Part shown: positions 1,909 to 59,490 of the stretch, piece after piece
How positions within the stretch are numbered: position 1 is the first letter of the stretch
Layout of the letters: each line of letters starts with the position of its first letter
Assembly (NCBI GenBank): GCA_033398695.1
Contig: CM065802.1
Location: forward strand, 165,969,965 to 166,033,964
Origin: Orobanche coerulescens
Lineage: Eukaryota; Streptophyta; Magnoliopsida; Lamiales; Orobanchaceae
DNA length: 64,000 bases
Reading direction: 5' to 3'
Translations under genes and position numbers: made by a program
Notes under the pieces: model-generated
Database searches by the model: none
What the model was told of the DNA's origin: nothing
Seen by the model: the letters and a program-made list of their open reading frames with translations, nothing else

Positions 1909-2287
1909 TTAGCGTACGCTAATCTTTAAGATTAGCGTGTGCTATCGAGACACCGAAGTAAAACCTCCTGACAAAAATACACTGTTAGCATGCGCTAACC
2001 ACAAGTGTTAGCGTGCGATAACGGGACCTTCAGACCCAGTCCAGTAGCTCCTGGACTGCCCTGAACTACCAGGTAGCACGCGCTATCCTCACCCTAGCGT
2101 GCACTACTAATAAACTCTAGCGCGCGCTATGACACTAAATAGCGTGCTCTGATCAACGTCTTGACCTAGTCCAGTAGCCTGTGGACTGTTTCTGCACCAC
2201 CAGTTAGTGTGCGCTACCACACCCGTAGCGTGCGCTAATAACTGCACCTTAGCGCGCGCTAACCACTAAGTGTAGCGTGCGCTAACG
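1909..2287 (-). promoter_or_regulatory. Palindrome array in U3 of LTR A
   Basis: About a dozen copies of a 12-bp near-palindrome, TAGCGTGCGCTA on the plus strand (TAGCGCACGCTA in the sense of the element), with variants such as TAGCGCGCGCTA and TAGCGTACGCTA. They are separated by irregular 10-40 bp spacers. Two hairpins are interspersed, for example CAGTCCAG and CTGGACTG around a 6-nt loop near 2040. The array starts immediately upstream (in transcription sense) of the TATA box. Similar arrays occupy the same place in elements C, D, E and F. Function unknown. Confidence 0.8.
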
Positions 2288-2678
2288 ACTCATAAAGACA
2301 GCAACAGAACTCTCAGAAGTGGGCACGACGACGGATACCCACAACTTTGGGAAATTACAAAATGACCCCAAATGTCCGAAAATCACAATACGACAACAAA
2401 TAACCAAACCGAATCTCACAACACGTATAACAACGTTGAATGAACTTACGAGAAACCCGAAATAATAGTTTCGAACGAGATTCGCAAGAATCGAACTCAG
2501 GCGTGGAAAAGTCGCTTAAGAACACGGAATTCAACAAAATGACACCGGAATGAACGGATGTCAAAAAGTGCAGAATTAATCATTCTTAGAATGATGAAAC
2601 GGTCACAAGCGAGTCGTCAAAATAGACCCCCGCCGAAAAAAAAGAAAATTACCGGAAATCGAAATTGCGGATATTACA

Positions 2679-2695
2679 TACTACCCTCCTTAAAA
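2679..2695 (-). other. Polypurine tract of element A
   Basis: On the minus strand this reads AAAAGGAGGGTAGTA-like purine-rich sequence directly before the 3' LTR, preceded by TTTCGGGACGAAACTTC, a stretch found before the 3' LTR in several elements here. It is the expected primer site for plus-strand DNA synthesis. Confidence 0.7.
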
Positions 2696-3119
2696 GAAGT
2701 TTCGTCCCGAAACATAAAATAAGTAGGGAGGAGCAACATCCCACTAGGAAACACCCAACGAGATACACAAGAACCGAAAACTGGCACCCAACAATAAAAC
2801 GTTACAAGCAATGCAAGGAAACATACGGCGTGAAAACACGCTCCATGACGACCATCACAACTCCACAGGCAGAGACATAATAAAACCAACAAGTGACAAC
2901 CGACATCAAACGGATTGTATAATCGAGTCAATTATCCGAACAATCACAAAGCAAGAGGTACCAATATAAGAAAACATACACAGTCAAGAAAACAGAAAAT
3001 AAACACAAAACGATCCACAAGGACAACCATAATCTATTCGGACTACACCGAAATCCTCAAAAACCACACTAGGGATCTCCGTATCCTTTCGGAGCAGACA
3101 TGCAACCTCATCCCCAAAT

Positions 3120-6346: not shown

Positions 6347-7516
6347 GACCCCGCCCATATACACACATTCACACACATAACATAACACGCCAAGGATATC
6401 CAAACAATTCATCCAAAGGCAATAAACACATAGCACAACACAAGTGTCAAATCACAACATACCGAAATGAGATAATATATGTATATATTATCAAAGCACA
6501 ACAAAAACACCAAGCATATTCATAGGGTTCACTTACCATTCACGAAACACAACATTCACAAAACACACGCGTTTTGAAAGTGAGCCTTTAACGAGGCTAA
6601 ACTGAATCTTTTGAAAGTTCTTTTCAAACAACCAAACAAATACATTTAGACGATCACCGATCATCATATCCACGAAACAAGAAATATATGGACAAGGTAC
6701 TTGCCTCGAATAACCACAAACACGGAGAATCAACCGAAGTAGGTTGGCACGAACCGACTACGAACCCGCCGACTCCGCCGAACTCCAACTCGCGACAATA
6801 AACTATGAAGGACAATAACAAAAATGAAAATGAATTTCATAGCACGACTCAAAGCCGCTGAATTGGAGGAACAAACGGCAAAAGCTCAAGGGTTTCCCCC
6901 AAAATGGCCAAGAACACGAATCGACCGACCAAAACAGTAAAATGAAATTCCAAACCGGAATATGGAAATTAAATCCTTAGGATATGTTTAACAACATCAT
7001 TTAACAACAATCGATTCATCAAAATCGGATGGAAAATGAGATCAAGAACAAAACTCCCCAAAAAGTCAACTCTAGGGATTCAAGAAAAATACCTTGACTC
7101 GGCGAAGAACAATGGATTAGATGATGTTATAATCATCATTGATACTCCAAAACACCTTTGGATCGAGCAAAATCGGCCAAGATCGCGATCCCTAGTCACC
7201 CTTGACTCAACCCCACAGAGAGGAGGAGAAACGAGGTGGAAATGATGTATCACCCTAGTTTATATGCACTGGACAGCTTAGCGTGCGCTAATCTTTAAGA
7301 TTAGCATGCGCTATCGAGGCACCGAAGTAAAACTTCCTGACAGAAATACACTTTTAGCGTGCGCTAACCACAAGTGTTAGCGTGCGCTAATGGGACCTTC
7401 AGACCCAGTCCAGTAGCTCTTGGATTGCCCTGAACTACCAGGTAGCGCACGCTATCCTCACTCTAGCATGTTCTACTAATGCACTCTAGCGCGCGCTATG
7501 ATACTAAATAGCGTGC

Positions 7517-8631
7517 TGTCACGGGGTTGGGTTTGAGCACTCAAAAGCTCTTCGGACTCGTGCGCCACTAGACTAGAATTGCCTCGATCTAGCTAGTAAG
7601 CCTTAACTCACTCGGTTGCTAAGTATGAAAGGAGGGGTTTAAACACTTGGGAGTTCAGAGAAAACACTTCTATTACACAAACACTTTACAAGAATGTTGA
7701 GTCTTTGAGGGTTCGGAGCAAATGAGCCAACCTCAAGCCTATTTATACAACTCCTAAGAACCTAGAACCTTCTACTCCACCTCCTCATTTGGAGGGTTCT
7801 AGACCTATCTACATCATACCAATTCTAGAACCTATCTCTAGAATCATCCACACAAGTCTACATACACAAGGCTTACAAACACATTCTAGAGTATTCCACT
7901 AAGTACAATCTAGAATGCTCCACAATCTTCAAGTATTACATCCTTCTAGGAGGGTCCTAGAAGGTTCTTCCATCCACCCGGGTGCCCCGGCCCGTCTCTG
8001 TCCATCCCGGCCCGCATTGGTCCATCCCGGCCCGCACCGGCCCACATCGGTCCATCTGGGCCCATATCTGCAATGTTCCAGACTCTTCCCGAACCTCCTG
8101 GACCAAGCTGGTCCGCTTCTAGCTGCTTCCGGTCGAGTCTTCCCTGCTGAGTGACTCCTCAGCTTTTCAATGTCCACTGCCCCCACAAGGATTTTTCCGT
8201 CTAAGCCTATTATAGGGGGGAGGGTCTCTCTCGCACCACATGCACGCGCGCCCGCGCACGCCGGCCGCGCCCGGCATCCCACGCCCGCGTCCGGCCGCCC
8301 AGCTCGAGTCTTGTTCCCCGACTCGGCCTTGTCCTGTCGTACCTTGTCCCACACGACTGCTGCTCGTCCGGCCTTGCCCGCGCCCCCTACGCTACCGGAC
8401 AGTCCCGAACGTATCCCGTTCGCAATGCCCCTTGGGCGATCTACTTCCCACAGCGGCGTCCGTGCTCCCACGGTTTCCACGCGTGATTCTCCGTCCGATC
8501 ACGCCGTCCTGAAGGCTGACTCTTCACTTGCAGCCCGATGCCATCCTTGGCGTCCTGCTCGTGCCGGTCCCTCGGCACCCTGTGCGACTGTCTGCGCACA
8601 CATGTCTCGTTGTCGGCTGTCGGCCGTGACA
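7517..8631 (-). repeat. 3' LTR of the gag-protease element
   Basis: 1115 bp, from TGTCACGGGG to CCGTGACA. It has a GC-rich outer part (about 8220-8630) and a tandem of about 20 bp built on TCCATCCCGGCCCGCA (7984-8062). Long frames on both strands of this GC-rich part show no domain and I take them as composition artefacts. Confidence 0.9.
7738..7970 (-). promoter_or_regulatory. LTR promoter with heat-shock-element-like sites
   Basis: On the minus strand a TATA box (TTGTATAAATAGG, near 7738-7750) is preceded within 230 bp by GAACCTTC (7765-7772), TTCTAGAA (7823-7830) and GAAGGTTC (7960-7967), all inverted GAA/TTC pairs with a 2-bp gap as in heat-shock elements, plus several half sites. The same three sites and TATA box are kept in the other LTR (10736-10963). 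Heat response is an inference only. Confidence 0.45.
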
Positions 8632-8643
8632 TTCTCCCCCGCC
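8632..8643 (-). other. Polypurine tract of the gag-protease element
   Basis: The minus strand reads GGCGGGGGAGAA immediately before the 3' LTR. Confidence 0.75.
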
Positions 8644-8788
8644 TATTTCGTCGACGTCCTCGGCGATGTGGCGGCCCCTCGATGAACCGAACTGCTCCAA
8701 GGTGGTAACTCGGCTCCTCCTCAAGCTTCCTCACGTACTGGAGTGCCGACATAGCTCGTCCCGAAGGCTCTGTGGTCAAGCGTATTTC

Positions 8789-9370
8789 CTACAGCTTGGC
8801 TTGATCACACACGTATAGCGCCCTCTTGTGCGGAACTACGCCAACATTGTTCTTCCTCAGGAAGTCCATGCCCAGTATTATGTCCCGATCATCCATGCTC
8901 GTCGCCTTGAAGTGCACGCGCGGTTCGCTCGTGCCAATCTTTAGTCGCACCCCATTGGCGACTCCTGTAACCCGAACAGGTGGTGCATTATTCAACTTCA
9001 TCCAGCCCCGTCCCTCGATGACCTGAAGCCCCAACCTCTGTGCTTCAGCCTCGTCAATGTAGTTGTAATCGGCCCCTGTGTCGACCAACGCCTTGACGGG
9101 TTTCCCATTGACCAGCCCCGTCACATACATCAAATTTCCCTCAAGCGGTGCTCCGTCCCGCGATGCCATCCCTATGGATGAGTTCAACACTTGAAGCGCC
9201 ATCGATGTCCCATCACCCTCGGCATCGTCCCATGCCTTGGCGTACTCCATGGCGGCTACCCTCGGAAACTTCGAGTATTGCCTCGTCGAATGCTCCGTGC
9301 TCCAGCAAATCTCACATTTCTTCTTCTTCGGACATGCTGCTACGAGATGGTCTGCACTCCCGCACCCATG
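8789..9370 (-). pseudogene. Zinc knuckles and retropepsin of the gag-protease element
   Basis: This is in the same frame as gag, directly after its stop. It begins with knuckle 1 (HGCGSADHLVAACP, whose first Cys position is the stop codon itself) and knuckle 2 (CEICWSTEHSTRQY, last Cys replaced by Tyr). An aspartic protease domain follows with the active-site motif ALVDTGADYNYI and the C-terminal flap-side motif IILGMDFL. Retropepsins cleave the Gag polyprotein. The DTG triad is intact. The frame ends in TAG at 8789-8791, yet the same frame continues beyond with MSALQYVRKLEEEPSYHL, which resembles the protease-RT linker of Ty3/gypsy elements; this suggests that the TAG is a mutation and that the pol genes were deleted after this point. 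Translation would need readthrough of TGA or an internal start (Met at 9250). Confidence 0.75.
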
Positions 9371-10462
9371 TCAAGTCCGAGTCCACCCTGACTGCTTGCC
9401 GTCCCTGGGCCTGGCCATCCTCGCGCCCCTATCCGCATTACCCTGGTATGACTTATCATGCGTACCGATGCCGTCCTCCTCCCTCTTGGACTTCCGGCTC
9501 TCCCCGGCTGGTTTCAACTCAATCAGCCGCTCCGCTATCGCAATCGCCTCGGACACGTTCTGTGCCTTGGCCCTCTGCACCTCCAACTTTGCCCACAGTT
9601 TCAGTCCATCCACAAACGCGAACAAAGCTTCCTGCTCACTAAGGCTAGGCAACTCTAGCACGATCTCCTGGAACTCCTTCACATAGTCCTTGGTCGTCTT
9701 GCTGTGCGTCAACTCCTTCAACCTAGCCCGGACCTCAAACTCAACATTCTCTGGGTAAAACTTCCGCTTGAACTCAGCCTTGAAATCCTCCCATGTCTCC
9801 ATCCGACATATACCACGCGCGATCTCTGTTTCGCGCCTTTTCCACCATAGCAGCGCCATATCTGCTAAGAAGAATGGAGCCATCTGCAACTTGGTTCCAT
9901 CATCTGCTATCCCCGATGCACCAAAGTAACGCTCCATGTTCCACAGGAAGTCATCCACTTCCCTACCATTCTGCGATCCTTGGAACGAACACGGCCGGGG
10001 GATGTCGATTCGATGGGGTGCCACACCTCGCTGGTCCCTGCCGTGGGCCATCGCCCGCTCGTACAATGCTGTCCTTCCTTTGATAGTATCGATCCTCCCG
10101 ATGATCTCCTCTCGAAAGGCTGCGATCATGGACGGAACCTCCTTCCTGACAGCCTCAAGGATCTCTTCACACAAATCGCATCTCAATGCATTAAGGGTGC
10201 CCGTCACCCAATTCTCAAGCTCCTCCAACGACTCGCTCATCTTCGTCACCTGGTCGGCCACTCTGCTCCATGCCTCGAGAGCATCTTTGTGTCTACCCAT
10301 GGTTTCCTCCAGCTGAGCCACTCGTGCTTCCATGGCAACACCTCTTTCCATGGACTTATCCCTAGACCCTTTCCTGGACTTGTCCTTCTCCTGGCCGGGT
10401 TGAACTTTGGTGATGCTGGATGTAGTCTCCATCGGTCCTCCTTGCACAAAACCTCTCAGCAA
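9371..10462 (-). CDS. Gag of the gag-protease element
   Basis: 363 codons, uninterrupted, starting at Met 10462 and ending in TGA (9371-9373). The first 30-40 residues are basic. Residues about 45-130 look like coiled coil (VAQLEETMGRHKDALEAW and onward). The retrotransposon gag (capsid-like) domain follows, with PRPCSFQGSQNGREVDDFLW, LLWWKRRETEIARG and FKAEFKRKFYP, then a Lys/Arg-rich tail. Gag forms the virus-like particle in which reverse transcription takes place. The stop falls exactly where the first Cys codon of the zinc knuckle is expected (TGC or TGT to TGA), so the normal product was probably longer, with nucleocapsid and protease joined on. It is the only intact gag frame in the window apart from this stop. 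The alternative is that the TGA is a regulated readthrough site. Confidence 0.85.
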   Translation of the reverse strand: MLRGFVQGGPMETTSSITKVQPGQEKDKSRKGSRDKSMERGVAMEARVAQLEETMGRHKDALEAWSRVADQVTKMSESLEELENWVTGTLNALRCDLCEEILEAVRKEVPSMIAAFREEIIGRIDTIKGRTALYERAMAHGRDQRGVAPHRIDIPRPCSFQGSQNGREVDDFLWNMERYFGASGIADDGTKLQMAPFFLADMALLWWKRRETEIARGICRMETWEDFKAEFKRKFYPENVEFEVRARLKELTHSKTTKDYVKEFQEIVLELPSLSEQEALFAFVDGLKLWAKLEVQRAKAQNVSEAIAIAERLIELKPAGESRKSKREEDGIGTHDKSYQGNADRGARMARPRDGKQSGWTRT

Positions 10463-10497
10463 CGTCTCAATACGGAAGCTCCTTGAACTACTAGCGT

Positions 10498-10510
10498 GGC
10501 TCCGATACCA
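10498..10510 (-). other. Primer-binding site of the gag-protease element
   Basis: The minus strand reads TGGTATCGGAGCC, matching the initiator tRNA-Met 3' end with one mismatch, two bases from the LTR at 10513. Confidence 0.8.
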
Positions 10511-10512
10511 CT

Positions 10513-11631
10513 TGTCACGGGGTTAGGTTTGAGCACTCGAAAGCTCTTCGGACCCGTGCGGCACTAGACTAGAATTGCCTCGATCTAGCTAGTAAGCCTT
10601 AACGCACTCGGTTGCTAAGTATGAAAGGAGGGGTTTAAACACATGGTAGTTGAGAGAAAACACTTCTATTACACAAACACTTTACAAGAATGTTGAGTCT
10701 TTGAGGGTTCGGAGCAAATGAGCCAACCAAAAGCCTATTTATACAACTCCTAAGAACCTAGAACCTTCTACTACATCTCCTCATTTGGAGGGTTCTAGAC
10801 CTATCTACATCATACCAATTCTAGAACCTATCTCTAGAATTATCCACACAAGTCTACATACACAAGGCTTACAAACACATTCTAGAGTATTCTACTAAGT
10901 ACAATCTTGAATGCTCCACAATCTTCAAGTACTACATCCTTATAGGAGGGTCCTAGAAGGTTCTTCCATCCACCCGGGCGCACCGGCCCATCTCTGTCCG
11001 TCCCGGCCCACATCGGTCCATCCCGGGCGCACCGGCCCGTCTCGGCCCGACCATCTAGGCTCGTCTCTGCAATGTTCCATACTCTTCCCAAACCTCCTCG
11101 ACCAAGCCGGTCCGCTTCTAGCTGCTTCCGGTCGAGTATTCCCTGCTGAGTGACTCCTCAGCTTTTCAATGTCCACTGCCCCCACAAGGCTTTTTCCGTC
11201 TAAGCCTATTATAGGGGGAGGGTCTCTCTCGCACCTCGTGCACGCACGCCCGCGCACGCCGGCCGCGCCCGGCATCCCATGCCCACGTCCGTCTGCCCAG
11301 CTCGAGTCATGTTCCCCGACTCGGCCTTGTCCCGTCGTGCCTTGTCCCACACGACTGCTGCTCGTCCGGCCTTGCCCGCGGCCCCTGCGCTGCCGGACAG
11401 TCCCAAACGTGTCCCGTTCGCAATGCCCCTTGGGCGATCCGCTTCCCACAGCGGCGTCCGTGCTCCCACGGTTTCCACGAGTGATTCTCCGTCCGATCAC
11501 GCCGTCCTGAAGGCTGACTCTTCACTTGCAGCCCGATGCCATCCTTGGCGTCCTGCTGGTGCCGGTCCCTCGGCACCCTGTGCGATCGTCTGCACACACA
11601 TGTCTCGTTGTCGACTGTCGGCCTTGACAGT
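10513..11631 (-). repeat. 5' LTR of the gag-protease element
   Basis: 1119 bp, the partner of 7517-8631 with scattered point differences. It has the TATA region (10736-10746) and the same three GAA/TTC pairs (10761-10768, about 10819-10826, 10956-10963). This copy would drive expression of gag. Confidence 0.9.
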
Positions 11632-12322
11632 GCGCTGATCAATGTCTTAACCCAGTCCAGTAGCCTCTGGACTGTTTCTGCAGCACCAGTTAGCGTGCGC
11701 TACCACACCCGTAGCGTGCGCTAATAAACTGCACCTTAGCGCGCACTAATCACTAAGTATAGCGTGCGCTAACGACTCAGAAAGACAGTAACAGAACTCT
11801 CAAAAATGGGCACGACGACGGATACCCACAACTTTGGGAAATTGCAAAACGACCCCAAATGTCCGAAAATCACAATACGACAATGAATAACCAAACCGAA
11901 GCTCACAACACGTATAAGAATGTTGAATGAACTTACGAGAAACCCGAAACAATAGTTTCGAATGAGATTCACAAGAATCGAACTCAAGCACGGAAAAGTC
12001 GCTTAAGAACACGGAACTCAACAAAACGACACCAAAATGAACTCGGATATCAAAAAGTACAGAATTAACCATTCTCAGAATGACGAAACGGTCACAAGCG
12101 AGTCATCAAAATGGACCCCGCCAAAAAAAAGAAAATTACCGAAAATCAAAATTGCGGATATTACAGTGTTACTTATGAACTTGGGTTTTATTATTGCAGC
12201 GATGGTTCATGTATTCGTGTTATGAATCAAAGTGAATATTTGATTGTGCTGCTATTTGTTGTTCTATGTTGATTATGTGATGTTTGTTTTGTTATGCTAT
12301 TCTGAATGGTTGTCCATTCAGT

Positions 12323-13342: not shown

Positions 13343-13734
13343 TAATATTTTGTGTTTGTAGTACGGCTGGTCTCCCGTGTGAAGACTTATTATGTAATGT
13401 TTTTATGTTTGACCGTGGTGTTTTGTTTGATAGCGGTGTGATGTCTTTGTTTTATGTTTCGGGACGAAACTTATTTTTAGAGAGGTGGAATGTAATACCC
13501 AAGATTTTCGTTCCGGTTATTTTAGATTTTTTCTGGATATTTCTCGGTTGTCGAGTGTTGGTATTATTTTCTCGATGATTGACTTTTGTGTTTATATGGT
13601 CGTGTGTGATTATTTGTTGCATGATGTTGTCATTTCGGGTCGGTGATATTGTCCGCGAGCGTTTTTTCGAGTTCGTTCCATGCGTTTTTGGAAATTTGGG
13701 TCGTCGAGTCATGGCGGTTGGACACTGGCCGGCC

Positions 13735-13930
13735 AGGTGCGAACGAGCATGGCGCACGATCTGGGTGCACGATCTGGCGCTCGTGTTGCCTTGACTGCAC
13801 GCGCACGAGCAGATGCTCGTGCCCGGTGCTCGTGTGTCTCGGCAGATTCCTGACAGTGGCACGCACGACCCGGCGCATGACCGGCCGCTCGTGCGTGTCT
13901 GCCCGTGCATCGCTGGGCAGTATAAATATG
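13735..13930 (+). promoter_or_regulatory. LTR B promoter with GCACGAGC/GCTCGTGC repeats
   Basis: Upstream of the TATA box at 13921 there are repeated GCACGA and TCGTGC cores, including a perfect 8-bp inverted repeat, GCACGAGC and GCTCGTGC around AGAT (13803-13822). The TAGCGCACGCTA motif of the other families is absent. The position relative to TATA is the same. Confidence 0.5.
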
Positions 13931-14857
13931 ATCGAGTAGGCGGGTTTATACTCATTTTCTCATTTCTCTTCTTTCCTTTCCGCGATTGGGGCTTGGAGGA
14001 CACGAAGTCATGTTGCTCAACTATCAATCCACAAAGTTCTTGAATTTCTTACGTCGATTAATCATCTTATAACCTCCTCCGATCGACCGAATCAAGGTTA
14101 GATTTCCTAAAAATCTAGTTTGGGGAAATTGGGGATTTTGTTTGATTTCGTCCGTTTGATCCGTAATAACCTATATTAGTGATGGATTATTGATTATTAA
14201 GTTATATTTTACCATTTTCCTTGTTGTTCCATGGTTTGATTACTAAGGATTCGTCTTTTTGTCGAGTTCCTAATTGGCGCCTTGAAGGTGTCCGGTAAAA
14301 GGTCTTAGAGGGGGATTCGGGCGTTATACGATTATTATTCCTAGTACGACCGTTGATTTATCGATGACATATTTTAGGAATGAAATCTTTGTGAAGAACT
14401 CGAGTCGGATCCCTTCCGTTCGTTGTCTTCTTCGGGGTTCGAAGTTTCCTGGTTGAACCGTGTTCTTCGGAGTGTTCGGTATCGGTTATTGAGGCAATTA
14501 TCTACTTATACGATTTATGCCTTGTGAATAGAGTTTACGTATTGGATTTACGATGATTTAGTTTACCTTCGTGGATATGATTGGTGCGATTTGATTATTC
14601 GAACTTTTGTTGGTATTAATGATATTCTTGCTTGTTTAACGTTGTGAAGTGGTGTTGGTCATATTAATCGCGTGATCCGTGTTGGGCTTGATTGCTCGGG
14701 TTTGATGTCTCGTGTTGATTATGATTATTGTATTGGACTGATTATATACTTGGACATGTATTTAGGTTTATGATTGGATGCTCAAACGTATTTGTATTAA
14801 GGTGTGTTATTCGTGGTGATGTGTTGCGATTTTGATATGTGCTGGGAAGTGTGTGTG

Positions 14858-15177
14858 TGTGTGTGGTCCAGGTACGGTCCATCGTGACCTCTGGGGTTCG
14901 GTACATGAGGTGTACGAACAGTGTGTGTGGTCCAAGAACGGTCCGTCGTGGCCTCTGGAGTTCGGTACATGAGGTGTACAATCAATGTGTGTGGTTCAGG
15001 TACGGTCTGTCGTGGCCTCTGGAGTTCAGTACATGAGGTGTACGAACAGTGTGTGTGGTCCAGGTATGGTCCGTCGTGGCCTCTGGAGTTCGGGACATGA
15101 GGTGTACGAACAGTATGTGTGGTTTAGGTACGGTCTGTCGTGGCCTATGGAGTTTGGTACATGAGGTGTACGAACAA
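14858..15177. repeat. 64-bp tandem repeat in LTR B, five copies
   Basis: Five units containing GTGTGTGGTCCAGGTACGGT and TTCGGTACATGAGGTGTACG. The phase marker CATGAGG recurs at 14904, 14968, 15032, 15096 and 15160, exactly 64 bp apart. Confidence 0.9.
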
Positions 15178-15480
15178 TGAGTTAATAAATAACGTTTTGA
15201 TGTTAAATCTCGGATGTGATGATATCTTCACTAATGTGTTTTGAAACAAGAACCGGGCTGAGGCCTTAACGATTTTCGAAAGAGGTTTTGTAATTTGGGA
15301 CTCGAGGTCCAAAAGAATTTATACTATAAAAATTTCTGAGATGCCGAGTTTAATTTTAAATACTTCATCGCTTGTTTTCTAATTAATAAAACCTCTCGGG
15401 AATGTTTTGACAATTGAGTTTCGTACTTGATTCGTGATCGCTTTTGCTTAATACATTTCGTATGCTATTATACTTGCACT

Positions 15481-15524
15481 AGTAAAACAGTGGAGTTTTA
15501 CTAACCCCCGAGTAATCAGGGGGT
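15481..15524 (+). other. Conserved hairpin pair in LTR B
   Basis: AGTAAAAC and GTTTTACT pair around the loop AGTGGA (15481-15502), followed at once by ACCCCC and GGGGGT (15504-15524). The first stem differs from that of C (AGCAAAAC/GTTTTGCT) by a matched C-G to T-A change. Confidence 0.55.
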
Positions 15525-16823
15525 GGATGTCTGTTTTGCGTCCAGGTACAGGCAGGTTCATGGGAGCAGTCACATGATCGGCACATGAAGTCACGAGCTG
15601 CGATACTAATCAAGAGTTGAGAGTTTGGTCAATTAATGTTGTATCGACCGAGTTATAGTCAGACTCCCACTATTTTGTATCTTTACCCCTGTGTGGGTAT
15701 TCATTGTAAAGAGTTGTATTTTTCTGTTTGTGTCAGTCGTACGACCTCAACGGTCCGTGTAGTTGTTTATAATTGACCTTAATGGTCTGTATCATTGTAT
15801 TGCTTGCCCCGACTGGCAAACACTTGGTCGTTTTGTGATGTTTAGCCTGGTAGATCCTCGTGGAAAGGATCACGGCATGTAATATTTCCATACGGTTTTG
15901 GGGGTGTTACAATTTAAATATTTTTAGATGGAAAATATTTGGTTCCTCACTGAAAACCAATTATGATGGGGAGAACCATTAATTACTCATCAGCCTTATG
16001 CGAATTGACATTGCTGCATATAACATATATCAAGTTTCCTTTTGAGCCAGCATAACATGATAAATCATTCGGAAGAAACTTCTGGTTCTTCAATGAATGT
16101 CTACATTAATCTTTTATTATTTTTCGCATCATTAGTGAATCCGAATGGCCTAACCGGTTATGCAAAAACAATATAATTGTCAGTAAACTTCTGGTTTACT
16201 ATAACATGGGTGTTTAATCGTACACATTTCAGCATAGTAATTAGTGTTAATTTCTTCATAATATGTTTAGTGCCTTGGGAAATACTTCGATCAGAAGGTA
16301 TTCTATAGTTTCTTCATTTATTGTCTGAACATGATATCTGGATATCTTTAAAACTCGATAGATTTCTTTGAGACATTGGATGCACATCCATATTTTCACA
16401 TTTCATTCTCATAGGAAACTATATATCTACTCTTCCGGAGCTTATTTTCCCTTCAGAAGCTTATTTGCTCTTCAGGAGCTTAATCCTTTTACTACCTGAT
16501 ATAATATTCACACTAGTTTCTTTCATTGCATAAATGTTCACTATTCATTATTATTTGAAGTTGGGGGGAATTCACATTATCAGTAGACTTCTGGTCTACT
16601 ATAGCATATGATCCATATCTTCACTATTCATATTCTTCAAATGAATAACAATCACATACTTAAGTTTAATCATATCTCCATAATAACATATAATATCATA
16701 GTTCAAATTTGAAACCAATTCATAAAATCATATCTACTAATCATGCTTGTAATATCATGAATATGAAACCATGTTCATTAAATTCATAAAACAAAACCAT
16801 AAATCCAAAACAAAATTATCTGT

Positions 16824-22725: not shown

Positions 22726-23160
22726 TCATTTATATATCGGGCCGGAACTAGCGTGCGCTAGCCTTCCCGCCTAGCGTGCGCTTATCGGCAAGATCGGCCG
22801 AGCACACTCGGCCATGGCCCGCACGACCCGGCACCACCGACCACCCCGCCGACCGTGACTCGACCGCCCGACTCCCGCTAGCGTGCGCTATGGCCGGAAG
22901 CCGCGCGCTAGCCGACTCCCAAAGAGCCACCGGACTAACAACTCATCCCAGAGCGACGCTAGTCGGCCGGCAGCTGCGGCGCTACCCTGCCGGTTAGCGC
23001 GCTACGACCGACAAGAGCGTGCGCTACCCGCCGATCCCGACCGAGTCGAACCTCGTAATACCTCTGTCTGTGCCCGATAGCGTGACGCTGGCCGACTCGA
23101 CAGCAGGCGCGCTTACATCGCTGAAGCTAGCGCAAGGCGTCCGGCCGAAGCGTGCGCTAC
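22726..23160 (-). promoter_or_regulatory. Palindrome array and TATA box of 3' LTR D
   Basis: CTAGCGTGCGCTAG and variants from 22748 to 23160, embedded in GC-rich sequence, with ATATATAAATG (minus strand) at about 22728-22738 just downstream in transcription sense. The partner array is at 29168-29580. Confidence 0.7.
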
Positions 23161-43475: not shown

Positions 43476-44768
43476 CTCGTAAATTCAGGGCTTGCTGGCC
43501 CCCGAACCGGACGCTCCCGTCTGATAACTCTTGGCTCCGCCTTTGTTAGCTCCTGTCGTCTTAAACGACGCGGACTGAGTGGCCTGATTCGGAACCGATC
43601 GCTTTGGGGTGCGAGATGTCGCGAGTCGGTTTGGAGTCCTTCGCAAAACGGGCCCTATGCCCCGCAATTCCACAGTTATGGCATGTGACAGTCTGCCTCG
43701 GACACTTGGTACTGAAATGACCCTGTTCTTCACAGTTGAAACAGGTGATGGCCGAACTGGCCGCTCGGGACTGAGATTCCGCAGGTTTAGGCGTCATAGG
43801 AGGTCTCTCGGAAAAGTGGAGCCCGCACGTGGTTTCTTGAAAGTGGCCTGGCTGCCGCCAGACTGATTACGATTTTTAGACTTCTTGCCAGTAGATGAAG
43901 TTTGATTCTTAGCAATTTCCTCAGTGGTAAGCTCATACGTAAGAGTTTTCTCAATGACTTCGGCCAGGGTGGTGCAATGATGATTAAGCAACTGAAGTCG
44001 CATACGAGGCTTCAACCTCTTGCTGAAATATTTGATCTTGTCCGCCTCAGAATGAATAATGGACGAGGCGAAAAGAAGTAGCTCCTGAAATTTCTCGGCG
44101 ATGGTGAGAACATCGTCGTCCGCTGATGGGTCAGGAGTGAGTAATTCGGATAACTTAGCCTCTCTGAGTGGGGCTGGATAATACCTCTCCATCATGAGAG
44201 TCTTGAATTGTTCCCAAGTACAGAATCCGTTGGTAGGCTTCAACAATAACCACCATGAATGAGCGCTCTTACCCAGATAGTAAGCCGCAACTGAAACTTT
44301 GTGTCCCTCAGGACAGTCCACCATAGCAAATAGTTTCTCGAAATGCTCAAGCCAGTGAATGATATCTGCCGGTTCAGATGAACCCTCAAAGGTAGGTGGC
44401 CTTTGGCAAGAGATGTCGCCAATGATACTGCTCACATCCCTCTCTTGCCTCTGAGGTGGCGGCGGAGGAGCCTGTTGATTCTGCGTAGCTGAATTATGCA
44501 TCGTCTCCATCAGTTGTGCCATCTGCGTCATTTGGGCCATCATGCCCTGCATAAAAGCGAGTAGATCAACCCGAACACCTTCTCACTGAGCTGTGTCCCG
44601 GGTACGACTCCCTGATAATGAATGATTACGCCTAGGTGAATGAGTGGCAGCATCACTGCTCGATGAATTAGCATTATTCCTAGCATTCGCACGCGTATTC
44701 ACACGAGCTCTCGGGTTTCAGCCCGCACCGCGGCCTCTTCCCCCGCATCCTCTGCCAGCTCTTTCCAT
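43476..44768 (-). pseudogene. Gag of element E, broken
   Basis: Starts at ATG 44768 with MERAGRGCGGRGRG and has two in-frame TGA codons before the open stretch beginning MQGMMAQMTQMAQLMETM (44552). The capsid-like core follows (RPPTFEGSSEPADIIHWLEH, FCTWEQFKTLMMERYYP), then a basic tail. A frameshift near 43795 leads into two zinc knuckles, CFNCEEQGHFSTKC and CHNCGIAGHRAR, the second losing its last Cys to another frameshift that restores the original frame for the link to protease. Gag of this kind packages the element RNA. Apart from these breaks the length, about 430 codons, is usual for the group. It is related to the gags of A and B by the DCPE-type core but is clearly a different family. 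Confidence 0.85.
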
Positions 44769-47443: not shown

Positions 47444-49991
47444 CGTAACACCCCTAACTAGGTGGGTATTACAGTGTCCTGGACCCCCGACTGGGACCCA
47501 CTAGGCAGATGAAAATTAATTAATTAAGTGATATGATTGTAGTACCGAACCACAGTATATCAATAATTACTCCGATGAGGAGTTTATTACAACACACCCA
47601 AGAAAGTAACCGAATACAAGTATATTTTATATGGAGATAAAATATACAACACTGAATGAACTCAAAATCCAAAAGAAAATCTGCAGCGGAAATAAAATAA
47701 AGAAACACAGTGAATGAAAGGACTGGGGCCCCCTACTAGTATCACTGGGACTCCTCGCCGTCAACATTCTCTTCCTGTGCCTTAGCCTTGCCATGACCTG
47801 AAAACAATATCCCCCAATGGGATCAATTACACAGAACAACAATCCTCAAGAGTTGAATAAACACAATCATATATGCTGTATAAACCACAAGTTCGATCAA
47901 AATCTCAAACCGTCGAACACATGGGATCAAAAGTGAACTGGTCAGATTAACCCAATCCTGTTGAAAACATACACAATCACACATGCTGTATGAATCAACT
48001 AACGGTACGGCTCAAAGGGTGGCGCCACACTACACCCGGGATGGAAATGTGTCCGTGCACAATCCACCAACGAGTATCGATCGAATACACGTGTGGTCTT
48101 GTACCTAATCAGTCTCACGAAGTAATTCTTCTCGTGTGCACAGTCCAATGTGAGGCCAACAACCAACACACGACTTAATATGTGCCCGACATGAAAATCC
48201 TACACATACCAACCGGCACGCCAATATGACCCGGAATGCCACGAGATAACAAAAGTGACATCGAAATCAATAATGACTCACCGAGATGAAATGACAGTGA
48301 AATGAATGATAGCTCAATGAAATGAGTGAAACCATCGTTCCTTGTGACTGAAGTGATCAATTGACAATTACAAGTCTCAATACGGTTAATACATTATGAA
48401 TGACCTATAATTATGAATGAACAACAACGAAAGGAATGAATATCCTTTTAACCGAGTAAGAATTAACTTACACAACTCCGATGAAGTATGTCCTTCCACG
48501 AACAACGTCCTAAATGAAATGTCGGTCGCTCGAACAACCTTAAATGACAATACCAACATTGCTCAATATACGAATCAAACATAATTATAACCGACTTAAA
48601 CGTCTATACAACAATATCCAAACTCATTGAGGCATTCTAGCGAACATTTAGCAACAAACATCCTTTGATAATATCCAAATCCCGAATATATCAAAACCAA
48701 CTCTAAAATGAGTATTTCAAACCAATAAGAACTTCAATGATATCAATAATCCCATAAGAATCCACAATTCGAGTTAACGACTACATCTAAATCGAAACCC
48801 CCAAAAATATCGAAGTCAACCCCAAAGTGTTCTTGAATCAAACCCCAAACAATTCATGAAAATCCGAAATATATGCCATTAAATCCCTAGGAATACATTT
48901 ATCCAAGATAGATAATCCATATCTAACATATTCCAACAACAATCCAAGATCATATGAAGAAAATGGAAGGAAAACCCAAAATATCCGAATTTCTAGATTC
49001 AGTAAATCATTACCTTTGATTTGATGTGTTGGGGATGATGAAATGATGATTACTCCGGATTATAAGCTTGATGATGATGATAGATGATTGCACCTCGAAG
49101 AACACTCTCTAATTCGTCCAAAATCGCCTAAAACCGCCGAAGAAACAAAGAGAAATGACAAAAGACGCTAAAGGACTGGACTGTCCTATATATAGAAAAT
49201 CCCAATTAGCGTGCGCTAGCTCCTGTGCATAGCGTGCGCTATGAATTAATCTGGGTAGTCCAGTACCCTCTGTTCGCAACGGTAGCGTGCGCTATGTACT
49301 TCTTGTAGCGTGCGCTATGACTATGTACTTAGCGTGCGCTAACTCAAAATGTTAGCGTGCGCTAACGAATTATCTGATGCCCAGTATTGGAGTCCAGAAC
49401 CTTCTGTCCTCTGACCTGATCGCGGTAGCGTACGCTACAATCAATATTTAGTGTGCGCTACTACACCATTTGCGTACGCTAAAAACCACTCGTAGCGTGC
49501 GCTATGAATTAATCTCGTTCAGTCCAGTGGCCACTGGACTCAACCTGATCCGACCTTAGCGCGCGCTACACCGACAGTATAGTGTGTGCTACACCGACCT
49601 AATAGCGCGCGCTACTTACTATTCGTAGCGTGCGCTACTTACAATCCCAATCGCAGTCCAGTGCCTTCTGGACTGCCTGCTGAACTACACTAGCGTGCGC
49701 TAGTGTTGAGAGGTAGCGTGCGCTACCCGTACTCAATTAGCGCACGCTAAAGAGAGTACGTAGCATGCGCATCTCCTCACACACAACACACTATGAAGAT
49801 GACAACGGTGATAATCACGGCACGAAACTTCATCTAGGTTGATGATGAATGACGATACAATTACTCTGAACAGTGAATACATTGATTGAATATGAGTGAC
49901 AAACGATCAATAATGAGTGAAAATTACTGAGTGACAATTACAGAATGATAAGTACTGAATGATAATGACTGAATTACAACCGGGTTTTACA
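47444..49991 (-). repeat. Element E 5' LTR
   Basis: 2548 bp, the partner of 37467-40015; the first base has changed (CGTAACACC for TGTAACACC). TATA about 49187-49194, palindrome array 49206-49771. One unit differs by a local replacement (49235-49255) relative to the 3' LTR. Confidence 0.92.
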
Positions 49992-51538: not shown

Positions 51539-51664
51539 TTAGCGCACGCTAAATACATATATTAGCGCGCGCTAACGGATCTGGCAGAGGGTTCTGGATT
51601 GCATTTTACAGCCGTTAGCGCACGCTACACATACCTTAGCGTGCGCTAGCATTGATATATATAA
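51539..51664 (+). promoter_or_regulatory. Palindrome array and TATA box of 5' LTR F
   Basis: Four copies: TTAGCGCACGCTAA, TTAGCGCGCGCTAA, TTAGCGCACGCTAC and TTAGCGTGCGCTAG, then GATATATATAAG at about 51653-51664. The partner is at 56967-57098, where the last copy and the TATA flank differ. Confidence 0.75.
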
Positions 51665-53693: not shown

Positions 53694-55886
53694 GGATATC
53701 TGTATTGTGTCCAGGTACATGCAGGTTTTCGGGAGCAAGTCACAGGATCGGTACGAGGGATGATGGAAGAGGAATGATACTAATCACACGAAGGCCAGTT
53801 TTGGGTTAAGTTAGTCGAAGTCCATTGTATTGTCTTTTCCGCTGTCTTATTGTTCATTGTTGCAAGTATTTTACCCTTGCGTGGGTATGAGTCTGGATGA
53901 GTTTATGTATTTTGATTTGTAAGTCAGTGAAGAAAGACCAAATCGGTCTATTGGTTCGTTATTTTGATTCGTCGGTATGTAATGTAATGTGTTGTTTTGA
54001 TGTCTAGCCTGGTGGATCCTCACGGAGAGGGTCTGCGGCGTGTAATATTCCCGATTCGATCTGGGGGTGTTACATTTATGGTATCAGAGCCTAGGTTGCG
54101 GAAACCTAGGCTGTCGGGTCCAGTCGTGTATTGTTGGGTCTTGTCTTGTCAGATTGAGTCTGACTGATGTCGTGTCGCGACGCGTCGTCTGGGATGTCGG
54201 TCGTGATTAGTATCATGATGCAACCATCATCTTCGTGCGATCTGTGGATGTAAGTCTCCCTACTACATGTTGTACCACGAGCTATACGAGCCGGTGTGAT
54301 TCTGTGTTATGTAGTAGTATTTGAAGGTGCATTGTGAGTAAGTGACATATATTTGTCGATTCTCGTTTTGTGCTAGAATGAAGAGTGATATTGCTAAATG
54401 TATCCTTGTATGAACTGTTTTTCTTGCAAGAGTAACAACCTTGGAATTTTAAGTTTTCGAAAGGCTTTCGGGGAGTCGTAATTTTTCTTAAAATGTTCTC
54501 CAAGGGAGGAAAAAAAATTTGATTTTTGTATGATGACCTCAAGGTCAAATTTTTTGAGACTTCAACTACCGATATTTCATTTTCATCTCATACTGTAAGT
54601 TTTCAAAACACGAGTTTTTAACTCAAATAAGGTCTACAAAATATACTCAAGACGTGACTCTTGCTTTTAACTTTTCAGTTTTGAATGACAATTGCCTATT
54701 GATGGTTGCTCATGAGGTGTTGTAATTATGTGAATCGATGGCTTTGAGATTCGAATATTGTTGTTGTTTATTTGTGACCTTCGATTCTATTAATGTCATA
54801 TATATGTTCACAATCATGTTGCTGAAATAGAACCATTAGCGCATGCTAAGTGTGAGGCTAGCACGCGCTAATGCAGTCTGGGTGGCGCACGCTAAATATT
54901 TGTTGTAGCGCACGTTAGTCAGTCTGGACAGAGGCTATGGAACTGCATATTTAGCCGTCAGGTCTATGTTTTGCACTCAATCATCTTCGACGGTATTCTA
55001 TGTGTGTTGAGCGATGCAACTGTTGTGTGAGAATAAGTGTTAGGACTTTTTGTAGCGCTAGGTGATAATTGATTTTGTTTAAATTATGTCTGTTGTGTGT
55101 GTGTTCGAAAACGTCACCCTGAAAATTTCATAAAGTTTCGACGATTCGATTAATCGGCGGCTCTGTGCGTACTTTGAAAATTATTTAGAATTAGCGAGCC
55201 GGCCTCGGATTCTCAAATAAAACCTCGACGGTATTTGAAAGAGTTGTTTTAAAGTACGCGTAGACATTTTATAAAATATTACCGTCGTTGGTTTTTGTGT
55301 AGTGTTGAGAGGATTTTTGAAAATGATTTTTGACGTATTGTTGTATTTTCAAATAATCCGAGTACATGATTTCAGAAATCTTTCACATCATAAAATCTTT
55401 ATTTTCAAAATTCAATACAATTTTTATTTTCAAAAATATACTGTGGAAGATAAAGAATCTTACTCGATTTAAAACTTCAAACTCGGGTTTAGAAAAGTTT
55501 TCTATACTGAGCCAGTTATCGTGCGTGATCTTGAATCACTCTATAATGATGATGTTAAAAAAATATATATTGTTTTGCAAGTGATGTCAAATGAGACGGT
55601 TAAAGTCCGTCGTTTACGGGTTTTGATGAAACAAACTGAGGTACCAAAAATACTTTCAAGATTTTTTGATGAAACAAACTGAGGTACCAAAAATACTTTC
55701 AAGATTTTATTTTGAATAGAGCACAAATCCAAGGATTTCCAAATGAAATCATTTAAAAGGATACCTCGTGGATTTTCTTATTTAGTTGTTATCAACTACC
55801 TTATGTGTTATGTCGTGCTGGGTTGGTACTTTAGCATATTATTTTCGTGAAGTTGCGCCATCGTATCGAGTGAGAATCCGCTTAGT

Positions 55887-56048
55887 ATGTCTAGGGATAG
55901 AGGATACGGTCGTGACCGCGGTATAGTTAGTCGTGGAGATCAGATACGGGACCAAGAGGATATGGCCGGGAAAGTTGCTACTCCAGCACTTCATTTTCGT
56001 TGTTTAGGTTTCGGGGACGAAACCTCTTTTAAAGGTGATATGATGTAA
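55887..56048 (+). pseudogene. Gag-start remnant in element F
   Basis: A 53-codon frame starting MSRDRGYGRDRGIVSRG, an RG-rich beginning like the gag starts of A, B and E, which passes straight into the conserved pre-PPT sequence (GFGDETSF, from TTTCGGGGACGAAACCTC) and ends in the first bases of a C-type LTR. It is what remains after deletion of nearly all of gag and pol. I do not expect a functional product. Confidence 0.5.
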
Positions 56049-56415
56049 TATCCGCAATTTTCGATTTTCGGTAAATTTCTTTTTTTGGCAAGAGTCCGTT
56101 TTAACGGATAAATGCGTGACGTTCGTCCTTCTGTGAATGTTTCATTCTACACTTGTTAACATCCGAGTTCGTTTCGGTGTCGTTTTGCTGAGTTCTGTGC
56201 TTTTTGGAGACCTTTCCGCATTTGAGATCGATTCTTGCGAATCCCGTTCGAAATTGTTGTTCGTATTTCCTCGTAAGTCCGTTTAACCTTATTAAATGTT
56301 TTGTGAAGTTCGGTTTGGTTATACATTTTCTTATCGTGATGTTTCAGGCGTTTGGGCCATTTTGTAATTTCCCAAAGTTTTGGGGTGGTTGCCTTCGTAT
56401 CGCCTTTCCCGATCT
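56044..56415 (+). repeat. C-family LTR piece inside element F
   Basis: Starts TGTAATATCCGCAATTTTCG and follows the first 370 bp of LTR C (19144-19510), then ends abruptly. No second LTR of this type flanks it, so it belonged to an older element captured in the interior of F. Confidence 0.65.
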
Positions 56416-56511
56416 TCAAGTTATCGGAATCATGTGTCATCTAGAGTTGCTCTGCCTAGATTGTTTCATGTTTTAAGTTTCGGGACGAAACTTCTTTTAA
56501 GGAGGGTAGAA

Positions 56512-59490
56512 TGTAATACCCGAGATTCTCGATTCCGGTTATTTTTGAATTTTTGTCGATTGCGCCGTTCATTTTGTTCTGTTGGCGATTTCTTGAGATT
56601 TTCCCCTATGTTGGGTACGGCACGATGTACCGTGTTGTGGTGTTCGTCGGGTGCGACTTATCGCTGCGTAAGTAGAGCTAATAGTATGTCTTGCTTTGTT
56701 ATGTGTTTGTTTTCGATTTGGATCGTTGGTGTTGTCCGTTAGTGTTTCGTTGCATGTTGAATAATTATTGTTTTGTCGAGGAGTATCATTTTTGTGCATT
56801 TGGTCGACTTTGTAAGATCACCACCGGCGCTTATAAAGTCTAAAAATTCTGAAACTTTACAATGTGATAGAGCATCAAATTAGCTTTCCAATGGTTCAAA
56901 CGGCGAGTCAATCGGAGTCCGGACGAAGGAGTTATGGCCGAAATAGCAAAGACTATGCAGTGTGTAATTAGCGCACGCTAAATACATATATTAGCGCGCG
57001 CTAACGGATCTGGCAGAGGGTTCTGGATTGCATTTTACAGCCGTTAGCGCACGCTACACATACCTTAGCGTGCGTTAACTGTTGACAGTATATATAAGAC
57101 TGCAGAGGTCAACTTTCGTCATTTCTTCCTCCCCTTTCTTCCTTCCGGTGATCTAGACGATCTTGAGGGTGTATAAGCATGGATTTTGGCCTGATATCAT
57201 CACCCATCAATATCTTTGAGTTCCTAGTACGGATTTAACAACATCCCAACATCTTTCGCCATTTTAATTAAGGTATTTTCTTCTTAAAACCCTACTTTCG
57301 GGATAATTGGGGGTTTATCGTGATTTCATGATTCCAATCCGAAATTGTTGATTCCCTTGTTGTTATCTAGTCTTGTTTATCTTAACTTGATTTGGAGTTT
57401 CGTTTTCATGTTTTTATTGGGTTGATTTATGTTCTTGAGATATTTTGGGGTTTTTTCTTTTGATTTCAATTCTGGGCCGATTATGATGAATTGGTCATGT
57501 AATCCTTGTTGTATTGGTTGTAATCTACGGATTAGTAACTCGTTTATCGACTTCATCTCACCCGGAACATGATTTTGGCTTTCTTGGAACGAACCCTTGA
57601 ACCCTTGTAGTTTCTTAGTGTCGATTGAGATTTCGTTTAGTGTTGTTGATTCGTAGCGGTGTTAATCTCGTGGTGATTGTGTTGTTATTGATTTCTCGTG
57701 AAGGTGGTCGGTTTTTGGGGCTGTTTCGGGGCTATTTTGGGGCTGTTTCGGGGCTGTTTTGGGGCTGTTTCGGCCGGGCTGTTTCGGGACTGTTTTGGGG
57801 CTGTTTCGGCCGAGCCGCTTTCGTCGGAGTATTCACAAATTGATTTCGAGGCAAGTATCTTGCCCATACATTACGTGTTTTGTGGATATATTAGTTGGTA
57901 ATTTTCGATACGTGATTTATGAATGTCTATAATTAACTTTCAAAGGAATTGATATGCTTTTCAATACTTCCTTAAAAGATGACTCGTATGATTTCGTTGT
58001 TAAATATGCTTGTCTAAGTATGTGTGGGGTATCGTTTTGTGTGATTATGACGTTGTAGATTTATAGCTTAACCTTTCCTTGAGATATGTATGGAACATAT
58101 GCCTATTGATGATCCTGTGTCATTGTGTCGTTCGGCGTGGTTGCATAGGTATTTTCCCTCGTTACTATGTTATTGGTACTAGCTGCATCGTTGAAATTCT
58201 AGCATGAATCATATCGTTACTTGGTCGTGAGTATATGTTGGATGAACTGGCCATTCTAGTAAGGTACCTCGACTATATATATACTGTGATTGACCTTCGA
58301 GGCTTGTGGTTTGCAACTGTGATTTTGGAACGTGTGTGTATGTGTTGTTCCTTCCACCCGGAGCGTTCGACGGGACGTCTGGGGGTCGTTACTAAGGGGT
58401 ACGGCCACGGAAGTGGACTTGGGTGCGTGTGTGGTTGAACTTCCACCCGGAGTGTCCGACGGGATGTCTGGGGGTCGATACTAAGGGGTACGGCCGCGGA
58501 AGTGGTTTCCCACGCGGAGCGTTCGACGGGGCGTCTGGGGGCCGATACTAAGGGGTACGGTCGCGGGTTACCAGGTGTAGTTTTCATCTTGAGGATGACG
58601 TTGATGTTTTCGTTAATTGTGATATTGTCCGGAATATCACAATGCTTTGTGCTCGGGGTCGAGAGACATTATATATCGAGTCTTGGTGCTTGGCTAGAAT
58701 GGCATAGGAATAATGTGTTATGTGTAATGTGTCCTTGTAAGTGAACTGAAGTGGATGATCGGGTCGTGGACCCCGTGTTTTGTGACCGGAATGGTTGGGT
58801 CGTGGACCCCGTGTTTTGTTAACGGATTTACATTTTGGAAAATGAACTTTGGGGCTGTGACCACTAAATGGCTTCGAGGAATTAAGAACTTTTCAATTTC
58901 TAATGTTTTCAAAACTCCCGAGATTTGGAAATGCTTTCAAAGTGGTTACTCGCTTCGTTTCTACTTTCAAGACTTGAACTATTTTTAACTAAAAATATCT
59001 CGGGAAGTCTTTCATTGTATTCTCGGAATGTGTTGTGTATGGCTCGTTTTTGCACTTTATACTTGCACTAGCGAAACAGTGGAGTTTTGCTAACCCCAGT
59101 GTCGGGGGTGGATATCTGTATTGTGTCCAGGTACATGCAGGTTTTCGGGAGCAAGTCACAGGATCGGTACGAGGGATGATGGAAGAGGAATGATACTAAT
59201 CACACGAAGGCCAGTTTTGGGTTAAGTTAGTCGAAGTCCATTGTATTGTCTTTTCCGCTGTCTTATTGTTCATTGTTGCAAGTATTTTACCCTTGCGTGG
59301 GTATGAGTCTGGATGAGTTTATGTATTTTGATTTGTAAGTCAGTGAAGAAAGACCAAATCGGTCTATTGGTTCGTTATTTTGATTCGTCGGTATGTAATG
59401 TAATGTGTTGTTTTGATGTCTAGCCTGGTGGATCCTCACAGAGAGGGTCTGCGGCGTGGAATATTACCGATTCGATCTGGGGGTGTTACA
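56512..59490 (+). repeat. Element F 3' LTR
   Basis: 2979 bp, nearly identical to 51083-54074. The differences are concentrated in the last palindrome copy, the G-rich repeat and the second hairpin. Confidence 0.92.

Follow-up and report, generated by a model that had tools for sequence, protein, structure and literature searches.

Arrays of a near-palindromic 12-mer upstream of the TATA box in Ty3/gypsy and Ty1/copia retrotransposons of Orobanche coerulescens: a candidate promoter module

Results

Box I arrays lie directly upstream of the TATA box and have a direction

The long terminal repeats (LTRs) of several retrotransposons in a 64,000-nucleotide stretch of the Orobanche coerulescens genome (GenBank assembly GCA_033398695.1, contig CM065802.1, here C2, positions 165,969,965 to 166,033,964; hereafter the window) carry, immediately upstream of the TATA box, arrays of a near-palindromic 12-mer that we have named box I. 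Judged from the sequence, these arrays are probably a multi-site promoter or enhancer module of LTR retrotransposons, predicted to be bound by a host protein and spread by descent together with exchange or convergence. Six LTR elements, A to F, were bounded in the window by self-comparison and, for B, C, D, E and F, also by duplicated target letters (Table 1). Box I has the consensus TAGCGCACGCTA in element sense, and its dyad symmetry, with the arms TAGCG and CGCTA, is broken by the two centre bases alone. When a copy was defined as a site with at most two mismatches to any of the four centre variants, 110 copies were found in the window, all of them (110/110) inside A, C, D, E or F, and none was found in B or in LTR G. 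On both strands the window held 173 matches at this limit, compared to 1.67 on average, and at most 6, in 100 dinucleotide shuffles, although these statistics overstate the evidence because copies within one family are not independent.

A preliminary description of the window had listed arrays in LTRs of these five elements. An array of 4 to 18 copies was indeed present at every range that it gave, but it had missed those in the other LTR of A and in the internal regions of D and F. Its placing of the arrays just upstream of the LTR TATA box also proved correct, since the end of the last box I was separated from the TATA box by 11-12 bp in 10 of 11 window promoters and by 7 bp in the 5' LTR of F (the TATA-like variants CATATAA and TATTTATA being allowed in the calls). 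The motif TCATTTY was found 21-41 bp past the TATA start in all 11 promoters. A sample of 20 stretches of 10 kb, taken on a fixed grid on C1 and C2 (200 kb), was then combined with the window. The first downstream TATAWA lay at 11-12 bp 16 times out of 60, versus 2 times over 13-27 bp, and another peak, of 15 at 34-35 bp, is consistent with the next box I; arrays with at least four copies held 4 to 20 of them. In the whole genome (3,646,015,169 bp, 3.65 Gb), box I followed after 11 or 12 bp by TATAWA occurs 43,279 times, with 0 occurrences for the reversed-motif control.

The two centre bases read CA in element sense in 79 of the 110 copies and TG in 5; with one LTR per family these numbers are 45 and 2 of 62, with a p value of 1.6e-11 that assumes independent copies, an assumption which fails. 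Since CA far exceeds TG in element sense, box I has a direction in spite of being nearly palindromic. Among 13 clusters of at least six copies in the sample, 12 had a CA or TG majority. In 10 of these polar clusters the TATA box was restricted to the side that the polarity predicts, in one it occurred on either side, and in one it was unrecognised. Complementarity of the bases flanking the box was considered as a further property and judged too weak: the first outside base was complementary in 24 of 62 copies versus 16.3 expected (p 0.018, one LTR per family) and in 47 of all 110 copies versus 29.1 expected, while bases 2-4 were not complementary. The alternating purine-pyrimidine tract within box I, GCGCACGC, which the preliminary description linked hypothetically to Z-DNA, is 8 bp only. 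Sirevirus repeated motifs are characterised by CpG islands; here the ratio of observed to expected CpG was 1.11-1.52 in the arrays versus 1.13 in the whole window; as a separate observation, this last value means that CpG is undepleted in the window despite its density of transposons, and CpG sites account for 30-57% of the transitions between paired LTRs.

Copies are regularly spaced and in several families a second motif occurs at a set distance

Adjacent copies of box I were 21-24 bp apart in 38 of 55 gaps. Counted from the TATA box, the series of gaps was 23-53-23 in A and E, 23-52-23 in the internal array of D and 21-53-23 in F, and it started with 24-108 in C and with 24-107 or 23-107 in D. 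A helical phasing of the long gaps was rejected as a finding, as its R of 0.64 at 10.6 bp was reached by 0.5% of random sets but the period had been picked post hoc.

Many of the longer gaps in the window contain a second near-palindrome, box II, AGTCCAG-N6-CTGGACT, whose consensus was derived from the window arrays themselves. Requiring at least 12 of the 14 arm positions, 12 sites were obtained, all in or beside the arrays of A, C and E, whereas 26 of 30 dinucleotide shuffles gave none and 4 gave one. Box II was centred 31-33 bp away from the closest box I centre in 19 of 23 flanks, while the remaining four had 23 or 42 bp (one flank across the nested element B was omitted and LTR pairs were counted twice), and random placement of box II in the same gaps reached the observed spacing in 0 of 20,000 trials. 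The TATA-proximal 53-bp gap of E and F holds a weaker box II (10-11/14 and 9/14, respectively), 22 bp after the upstream box I and 31 bp before the downstream one. The half box CTACTGGACT, with at most one mismatch, was found 25 times in the 264 kb of window and sample, 22 times within 200 bp of a box I, and a genome-wide count of half box II at the set distance from box I gave 14,666, versus 0 for the reversed-motif control. We also observed that in the 3' LTR of A (1880-1909) two box II-like arms (GTCCAG ... CTGGAC) form an inverted repeat whose loop contains the TATA box; this repeat is less perfect in the internal promoter of D and has lost its second arm in the 5' LTR of A.

Box I occurs more than a million times in the genome, in clusters

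The exact 12-mer was counted 1,017,744 times in the genome (507,111 + 510,633), versus 56 times (33 + 23) for a control read backwards without complementing. Perfect palindromes add 143,744 copies with a TA centre (control 48) and 148,354 with a CG centre (control 4), 292,098 in sum, so that all exact copies together amount to 1,309,842. In the sample, 192 sites were found in 13 of the 20 stretches, with 72 exact copies compared to 55.8 expected from the genome count, and 189 of the 192 belonged to clusters of two or more within 150 bp. The three isolated sites all had two mismatches, and six shuffles of these stretches gave 6-13 sites. The 12-mer is thus not equally common outside LTR promoters, as far as the sample goes. 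The array of E had no match in plasmids. Pairs of box I do occur in viral and bacterial contigs (for the two-box pattern, 0 viral contigs with a CA centre, one viral with any YR centre and one bacterial), but we judged them unrelated, as they are operator-like single pairs and not arrays; the single pairs, 22-23 bp apart, lie at 396-429 of bacterial contig L001 and at 12696-12730 of viral contig L002.

Descent accounts for part of the sharing among Ty3/gypsy LTRs

The preliminary description regarded E as having a very different LTR and the array as a promoter module shared, exchanged or acquired by several families. In fact, the LTRs of A and C are 81-83% identical on both sides of the array, those of C and D about 79-80% identical across it, and those of A and D 82-83% identical upstream of it, and F shares pieces with A, C and D. 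By these alignments A, C, D and parts of F appear as one kindred, in which the module was shared by plain descent, and because their LTRs are related they are not independent families.

With regard to E, the earlier view held: with the boxes masked, no match of the E LTR to other LTRs of the window was obtained below an E value of 0.05 (best BLAST E value 0.08), and its flanks (up to 1500 bp) joined none of 22 other array flanks. Faint signs of kinship were nevertheless seen even for E. Near-global scores of E against shuffles gave z values of 12.9 for A, 8.8 for G, 4.7 for C, 4.5 for D and 1.7 for F (-1.2 to 3.8 for the B controls), and the 3' end of the E LTR matched the sampled LTR L027 over 71 bp at 73% identity (E value 4e-5). 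These scores make a very distant kinship of E to some LTRs possible. Unmasked matches of E comprised 60 and 71 bp in L027 and 142 bp in L029, the latter spanning the array through the TATA box. An apparent clustering of E with others through matches of 495-498 bp was discarded, as we take it to be masked N stretches aligning together.

Exchange could be seen directly in two cases. In D, two stretches that adjoin each other in C (C internal 500 and 489) are separated by about 580 bp of additional sequence. This block shows 77-79% identity to the A promoter, and at an E value of 1e-4 it did not match D's own LTR. Moreover, F contains a relic of the start of an A/C/D-type LTR in its internal region. 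The structure of both pieces directly supports movement of promoter or LTR blocks between elements, while exchange between E and the other families is putative. The module is shared across LTRs that can hardly be aligned, as first proposed, with exchange supported in D and F, but within A, C, D and parts of F its sharing is due to descent.

The same arrays are present in a Ty1/copia element

One sampled element, L011, has two LTR copies, 92.6% identical, with box I arrays. The gag pieces between them match the copia-type domain PF14223 (6e-17 and 2.2e-11), and the polypurine tract AGGGGGAG begins 10 bp before the 3' LTR if TGTTGG is taken as the LTR start. This tract at that place is described as a Sirevirus hallmark (PMC2829016), and from these features L011 is classified as a Ty1/copia, Sirevirus-like element. 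Since this copia-type element bears the same arrays, box I arrays cross superfamilies and are present in both Ty3/gypsy and Ty1/copia LTRs. The array flanks of L011 and of L015 did not align with gypsy LTRs; the lone link of an L015 flank with A is a piece of an E-like element adjoining both.

The route between gypsy and copia could be either transfer or convergence on one host factor. Convergence of both kinds of array on one abundant host factor, with no DNA transferred, would be a variant of the enhancer reading and is a real possibility: besides the unalignable flanks, the TATA box lies 41-43 bp away in L011 and L015 versus 11-12 bp in the window, and palindromic arrays are reported to be frequent in Sireviruses (PMC2829016). 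On the other hand, both L011 and L015 have the half box at 21-22 bp from the upstream and 31-32 bp from the downstream box I centre, which resembles the layout of E and F with their weaker box II, and such a coincidence is much to reach twice. We tentatively consider, as a rather doubtful proposal, that one module, consisting of a box I array and of box II placed at a fixed helical distance from it, was handed between Ty3/gypsy and Ty1/copia, and that the roughly 1.3 million exact sites turn the binding factor into a dependency shared on the scale of the genome, the elements competing for one host regulator and all being controlled through it.

Boxes are better conserved than spacers between related promoters

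In alignments between promoters of different elements, identities (gap columns excluded) were higher in boxes than in spacers: 84/94 versus 98/158 for A and the internal array of D, 75/80 versus 99/154 for the 5' LTR of A and the same array, 116/136 versus 191/286 for C and D, and, with a small difference, 110/136 versus 208/282 for the other C-D pair. The same comparison within elements, whose LTRs diverged after insertion, gave 201/216 in boxes and 340/364 in spacers for E, 82/92 and 139/151 for A (49/52 and 82/89 in a second comparison), 136/144 and 267/292 for C, 47/48 and 68/73 for F, and 58/60 and 310/358 for D. In the D pair (21329-23729 and 27752-30151) the difference amounted to about 12% over the 600 bp surrounding the array, compared to about 1% outside them, 74 of 94 differences falling in 600 alignment columns there. 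Gene conversion was considered for this pair and set aside, since many of the differences are small shifts in GC-rich sequence and sequencing or assembly error is equally likely.

That the arrays are neutral tandem-repeat expansions in LTRs from one ancestor and the 12-mer is functionless seems very improbable to us. The homology of A, C, D and parts of F beside the array, the faint signs that E is distant kin, the regular spacing of units and the variable copy number would all fit such an expansion. However, spacers decay while boxes persist between related promoters, and the same box is shared by E and by a copia element with flanks that cannot be aligned to gypsy LTRs.

A host protein is predicted to bind the arrays

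That a protein binds the arrays and that this activates transcription is deduced here from sequence features, as is any naming of the binder. Binding is favoured because of the fixed distance to the TATA box, the near-constant spacing, the second motif at a set distance in several families, the polarity and the conservation of boxes over spacers between families. According to the mechanism that we propose, a host protein, probably as a dimer, would recognise box I, and the many bound copies, about two helical turns apart, would act cooperatively, in some families with a second factor on box II about three turns away. The bound array would activate transcription from the TATA box 11-12 bp downstream, and within Ty3/gypsy it would have spread by descent and by movement of promoter blocks between elements.

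With respect to the binder, the link to CAMTA factors suggested in the preliminary description could not be upheld. With one LTR per family, the CAMTA consensus (VCGCGB/MCGTGT; PMC4890006) was found as VCGCGB in 10 of 62 copies and as MCGTGT in 1 of 62. The BRRE, defined as CGTG[CT]G (PMC12668046), is inside 35 of the 62 copies, but it covers only 6 of the 12 conserved positions of box I and omits the outer TAG and CTA. We therefore regard it as unlikely that the binder is CAMTA or another named family such as BZR/BES. FBS, G-box and E2F consensus sites were rejected as candidates, with few or none within copies.

Palindromes might instead act as structure, through RNA folding or DNA extrusion feeding small RNA or silencing, a role reportedly proposed for the palindromes of maize Sireviruses. 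Compared to shuffles, the RNA of the arrays does fold far better (E, z -9.29; A, z -5.62; neighbouring control in E, z +1.35), but such folding strength is expected of any palindrome array and needs no fixed distance to the TATA box. Furthermore, among 62 changed arm pairs (550 cells, 110 copies) there were 0 double changes to another Watson-Crick pair, although the limit of two mismatches leaves few chances for them. A structural role is thus not very likely in our opinion.

Several observations weigh against the arrays being a general, protein-bound promoter module. In addition to the inflated shuffle statistics mentioned above, the polarity of TATA-proximal boxes is milder genome-wide, with 43,279 in sense and 16,506 reversed, and the array of L018 (position 1150) consists of 9 TA-centre copies only; with its TATA box at 12 bp, L018 shows the TA centre as a family-level variant of box I. 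LTR G carries a TATA box without an array, and L011 and L015 depart from the usual TATA distance. The contrast between boxes and spacers is not clean, because sites were selected by match, which favours boxes, and because pairs within one element often favour boxes too: they led in 4 of 6 such comparisons (by 2-10 points) and trailed in 2, compared to leads of 7-29 points between families. Box II was not clear in the TATA-proximal long gap of A (8/14) or of the internal array of D (6/14), and in D clear boxes are few and a clear box II is lacking. The 20-stretch sample yielded one full box II (13/14), with flanks of 23 and 93 bp and none at 31-33, and the downstream distances of nine sampled half boxes to box I varied (23, 30, 30, 31, 31, 32, 32, 52 and 60 bp, the last in L029). 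Because the sample held just one full site, full box II marks some families only and is not general.

Elements and other features of the window

Coordinates are collected in Table 1. When 14 open stretches of the window were scanned against Pfam, parts of reverse transcriptase, RNase H or integrase were confined to E and to an E-like fragment (3-752) at the left edge. By its gag and the order reverse transcriptase-RNase H-integrase, E belongs to Ty3/gypsy. Its zinc-binding integrase part (PF17921) was over the cutoff, while the integrase core PF00665 (18.6 bits, cutoff 32.6) was under it, as was a weak chromodomain match at the integrase end (PF00385, E value 0.0052, 17.1 bits, cutoff 25.1). 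The gag of E matched 22 proteins, every one of them from an Orobanche species; for the gag piece of A the single match was a protein of Orobanche gracilis, with 82% identity. Among the 120 matches listed of 7989 for the pol piece of E, the named ones were from plants (Tanacetum, Sesamum, Prunus and others) and none was named Orobanche. The window had no Rfam match at the gathering score, and no tRNA was found.

Tandem repeats were observed in three places: about 12 copies of an AT-rich 118-bp satellite in the internal region of E (45581-46970), a 108-bp repeat in both LTRs of C (30153-30639 and 35683-36342, 4.5 and 6.1 copies) and degenerate 29-bp repeats of the TTTCGACC type on both sides of F (50150-51048 and 59490-60530). 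Finally, the insertion point of B falls exactly inside a box I copy of A; LTR elements are described as favouring palindromic targets only slightly (PMC6911290).

Table 1. Elements, box I arrays, box II sites and related features of the window, with distances of box II sites to adjacent box I centres.
Feature	Location	Coordinates	Strand	Remarks
Element	A		-	5' LTR split by nested B; 3' LTR cut at 728
Element	B	7517..11629	-	gag and protease stretches, no box I array; 4-bp duplication GTGC; nested within a box I copy of A
Element	C		+	target duplication GAAAT; 5' LTR split by D
Element	D		-	target duplication CCGAC
Element	E		-	target duplication ATTTT; gag-pol in several open stretches
Element	F		+	target duplication GGGAT
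Related LTR	G	13491..15911	+	ends inferred; TATA present, box I array absent
gag-pol	E	40053..44582	-	several open stretches: gag, protease, reverse transcriptase, RNase H, integrase
TATA box	A 3' LTR	1892..1897	-	12 bp from last box I
Box I array	A 3' LTR	1910..2284	-	12 copies
Box I array	A 5' LTR, part 1	7279..7498	-	6 copies; broken by nested B
Box I array	A 5' LTR, part 2	11691..11771	-	4 copies
Box I array	C 5' LTR	19705..20124	+	12 copies; TATA-like box at 20137
Box I array	C 3' LTR	34121..34540	+	12 copies; TATA-like box at 34553
Box I array	D 3' LTR	22749..23159	-	5 copies
Box I array	D 5' LTR	29169..29579	-	5 copies
A-type promoter block	D internal	25515..26092	-	7 box I copies 25833-26066; TATA 25816-25821; A-like downstream part
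Box I array	E 3' LTR	39230..39796	-	18 copies
Box I array	E 5' LTR	49207..49749	-	17 copies
Box I array	F 5' LTR	51540..51648	+	4 copies
Box I array	F internal	54837..54917	+	4 copies; by eye no TATA in next 80 bp
Box I array	F 3' LTR	56969..57077	+	4 copies
A/C/D-type LTR-start relic	F internal	56044..56384	+	first 329-341 bp; upstream of F's 3' LTR and polypurine tract
Box II		2038..2057	-	14/14; 33 and 32 bp
Box II		2168..2187	-	13/14; 32 and 33 bp
Box II		19933..19952	+	13/14; 32 and 23 bp
Box II		39414..39433	-	12/14; 42 and 32 bp
Box II		39545..39564	-	14/14; 32 and 32 bp
Box II		39679..39698	-	14/14; 33 and 32 bp

Discussion

The closest known kind of sequence is the repeated motif (RM) of Sireviruses, described as a short palindrome with dyad symmetry that is repeated many times within an LTR, in clusters upstream of a conserved TATA box, and that in some elements has extra copies in the internal region (PMC2829016). 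Box I shares the dyad symmetry, the clustering upstream of the TATA box and the extra internal copies. The same work sets at least eight copies over the 3' LTR plus the internal region as the rule for an RM, and at up to two mismatches the counts are 12 in A, 12 in C, 5+7 in D, 18 in E and 4+4 in F. There, RMs are termed Sirevirus-specific; most elements have their own motif, and 12 of 13 RMs have a CGG-CCG core (PMC2829016). Box I, in contrast, lacks this core, and its window host E is Ty3/gypsy, the sampled L011 being a copia host. Moreover, one 12-mer serves both superfamilies in one genome, is polar and keeps a set distance to box II in several families. Because the host superfamily and the core differ for the window elements, we class box I arrays as a variant of Sirevirus RMs and not as a member.

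Ty3/gypsy elements are abundant in broomrapes, Tekay chromoviruses making up 9.74-12.7% of diploid Orobanche genomes (PMC4381496). The Tekay passages of that paper concern abundance, and the words 'promoter' and 'palindrom' do not occur in its main text. Short-motif arrays in mobile DNA are also known from VANDAL elements, where they are bound by the element-encoded anti-silencing VANC proteins. Unlike these, the 14 window stretches scanned with Pfam gave only gag-pol parts or nothing, which is a weak contrast. The window elements may be of the Tekay type.

No description of this array was found in the literature searched, and the eight papers containing the letters of the 12-mer or its variants were, by their titles and the starts of their abstracts, not about retrotransposons. 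Box II, the polarity of box I, the kinship of A, C, D and F as opposed to E, the occurrence in copia and the second, A-type promoter inside D are additions to the preliminary description. The arrays extend the palindrome design of Sireviruses to Ty3/gypsy elements, and they open two questions to testing: whether superfamilies can trade promoters, and how a regulator of the host manages when much of the genome's mobile DNA targets it. Should the arrays be bound by one and the same host factor, a large share of the mobile DNA in the 3.65-Gb genome of a parasitic plant would be governed by a single protein, and the host would have more than one million decoy sites to buffer.

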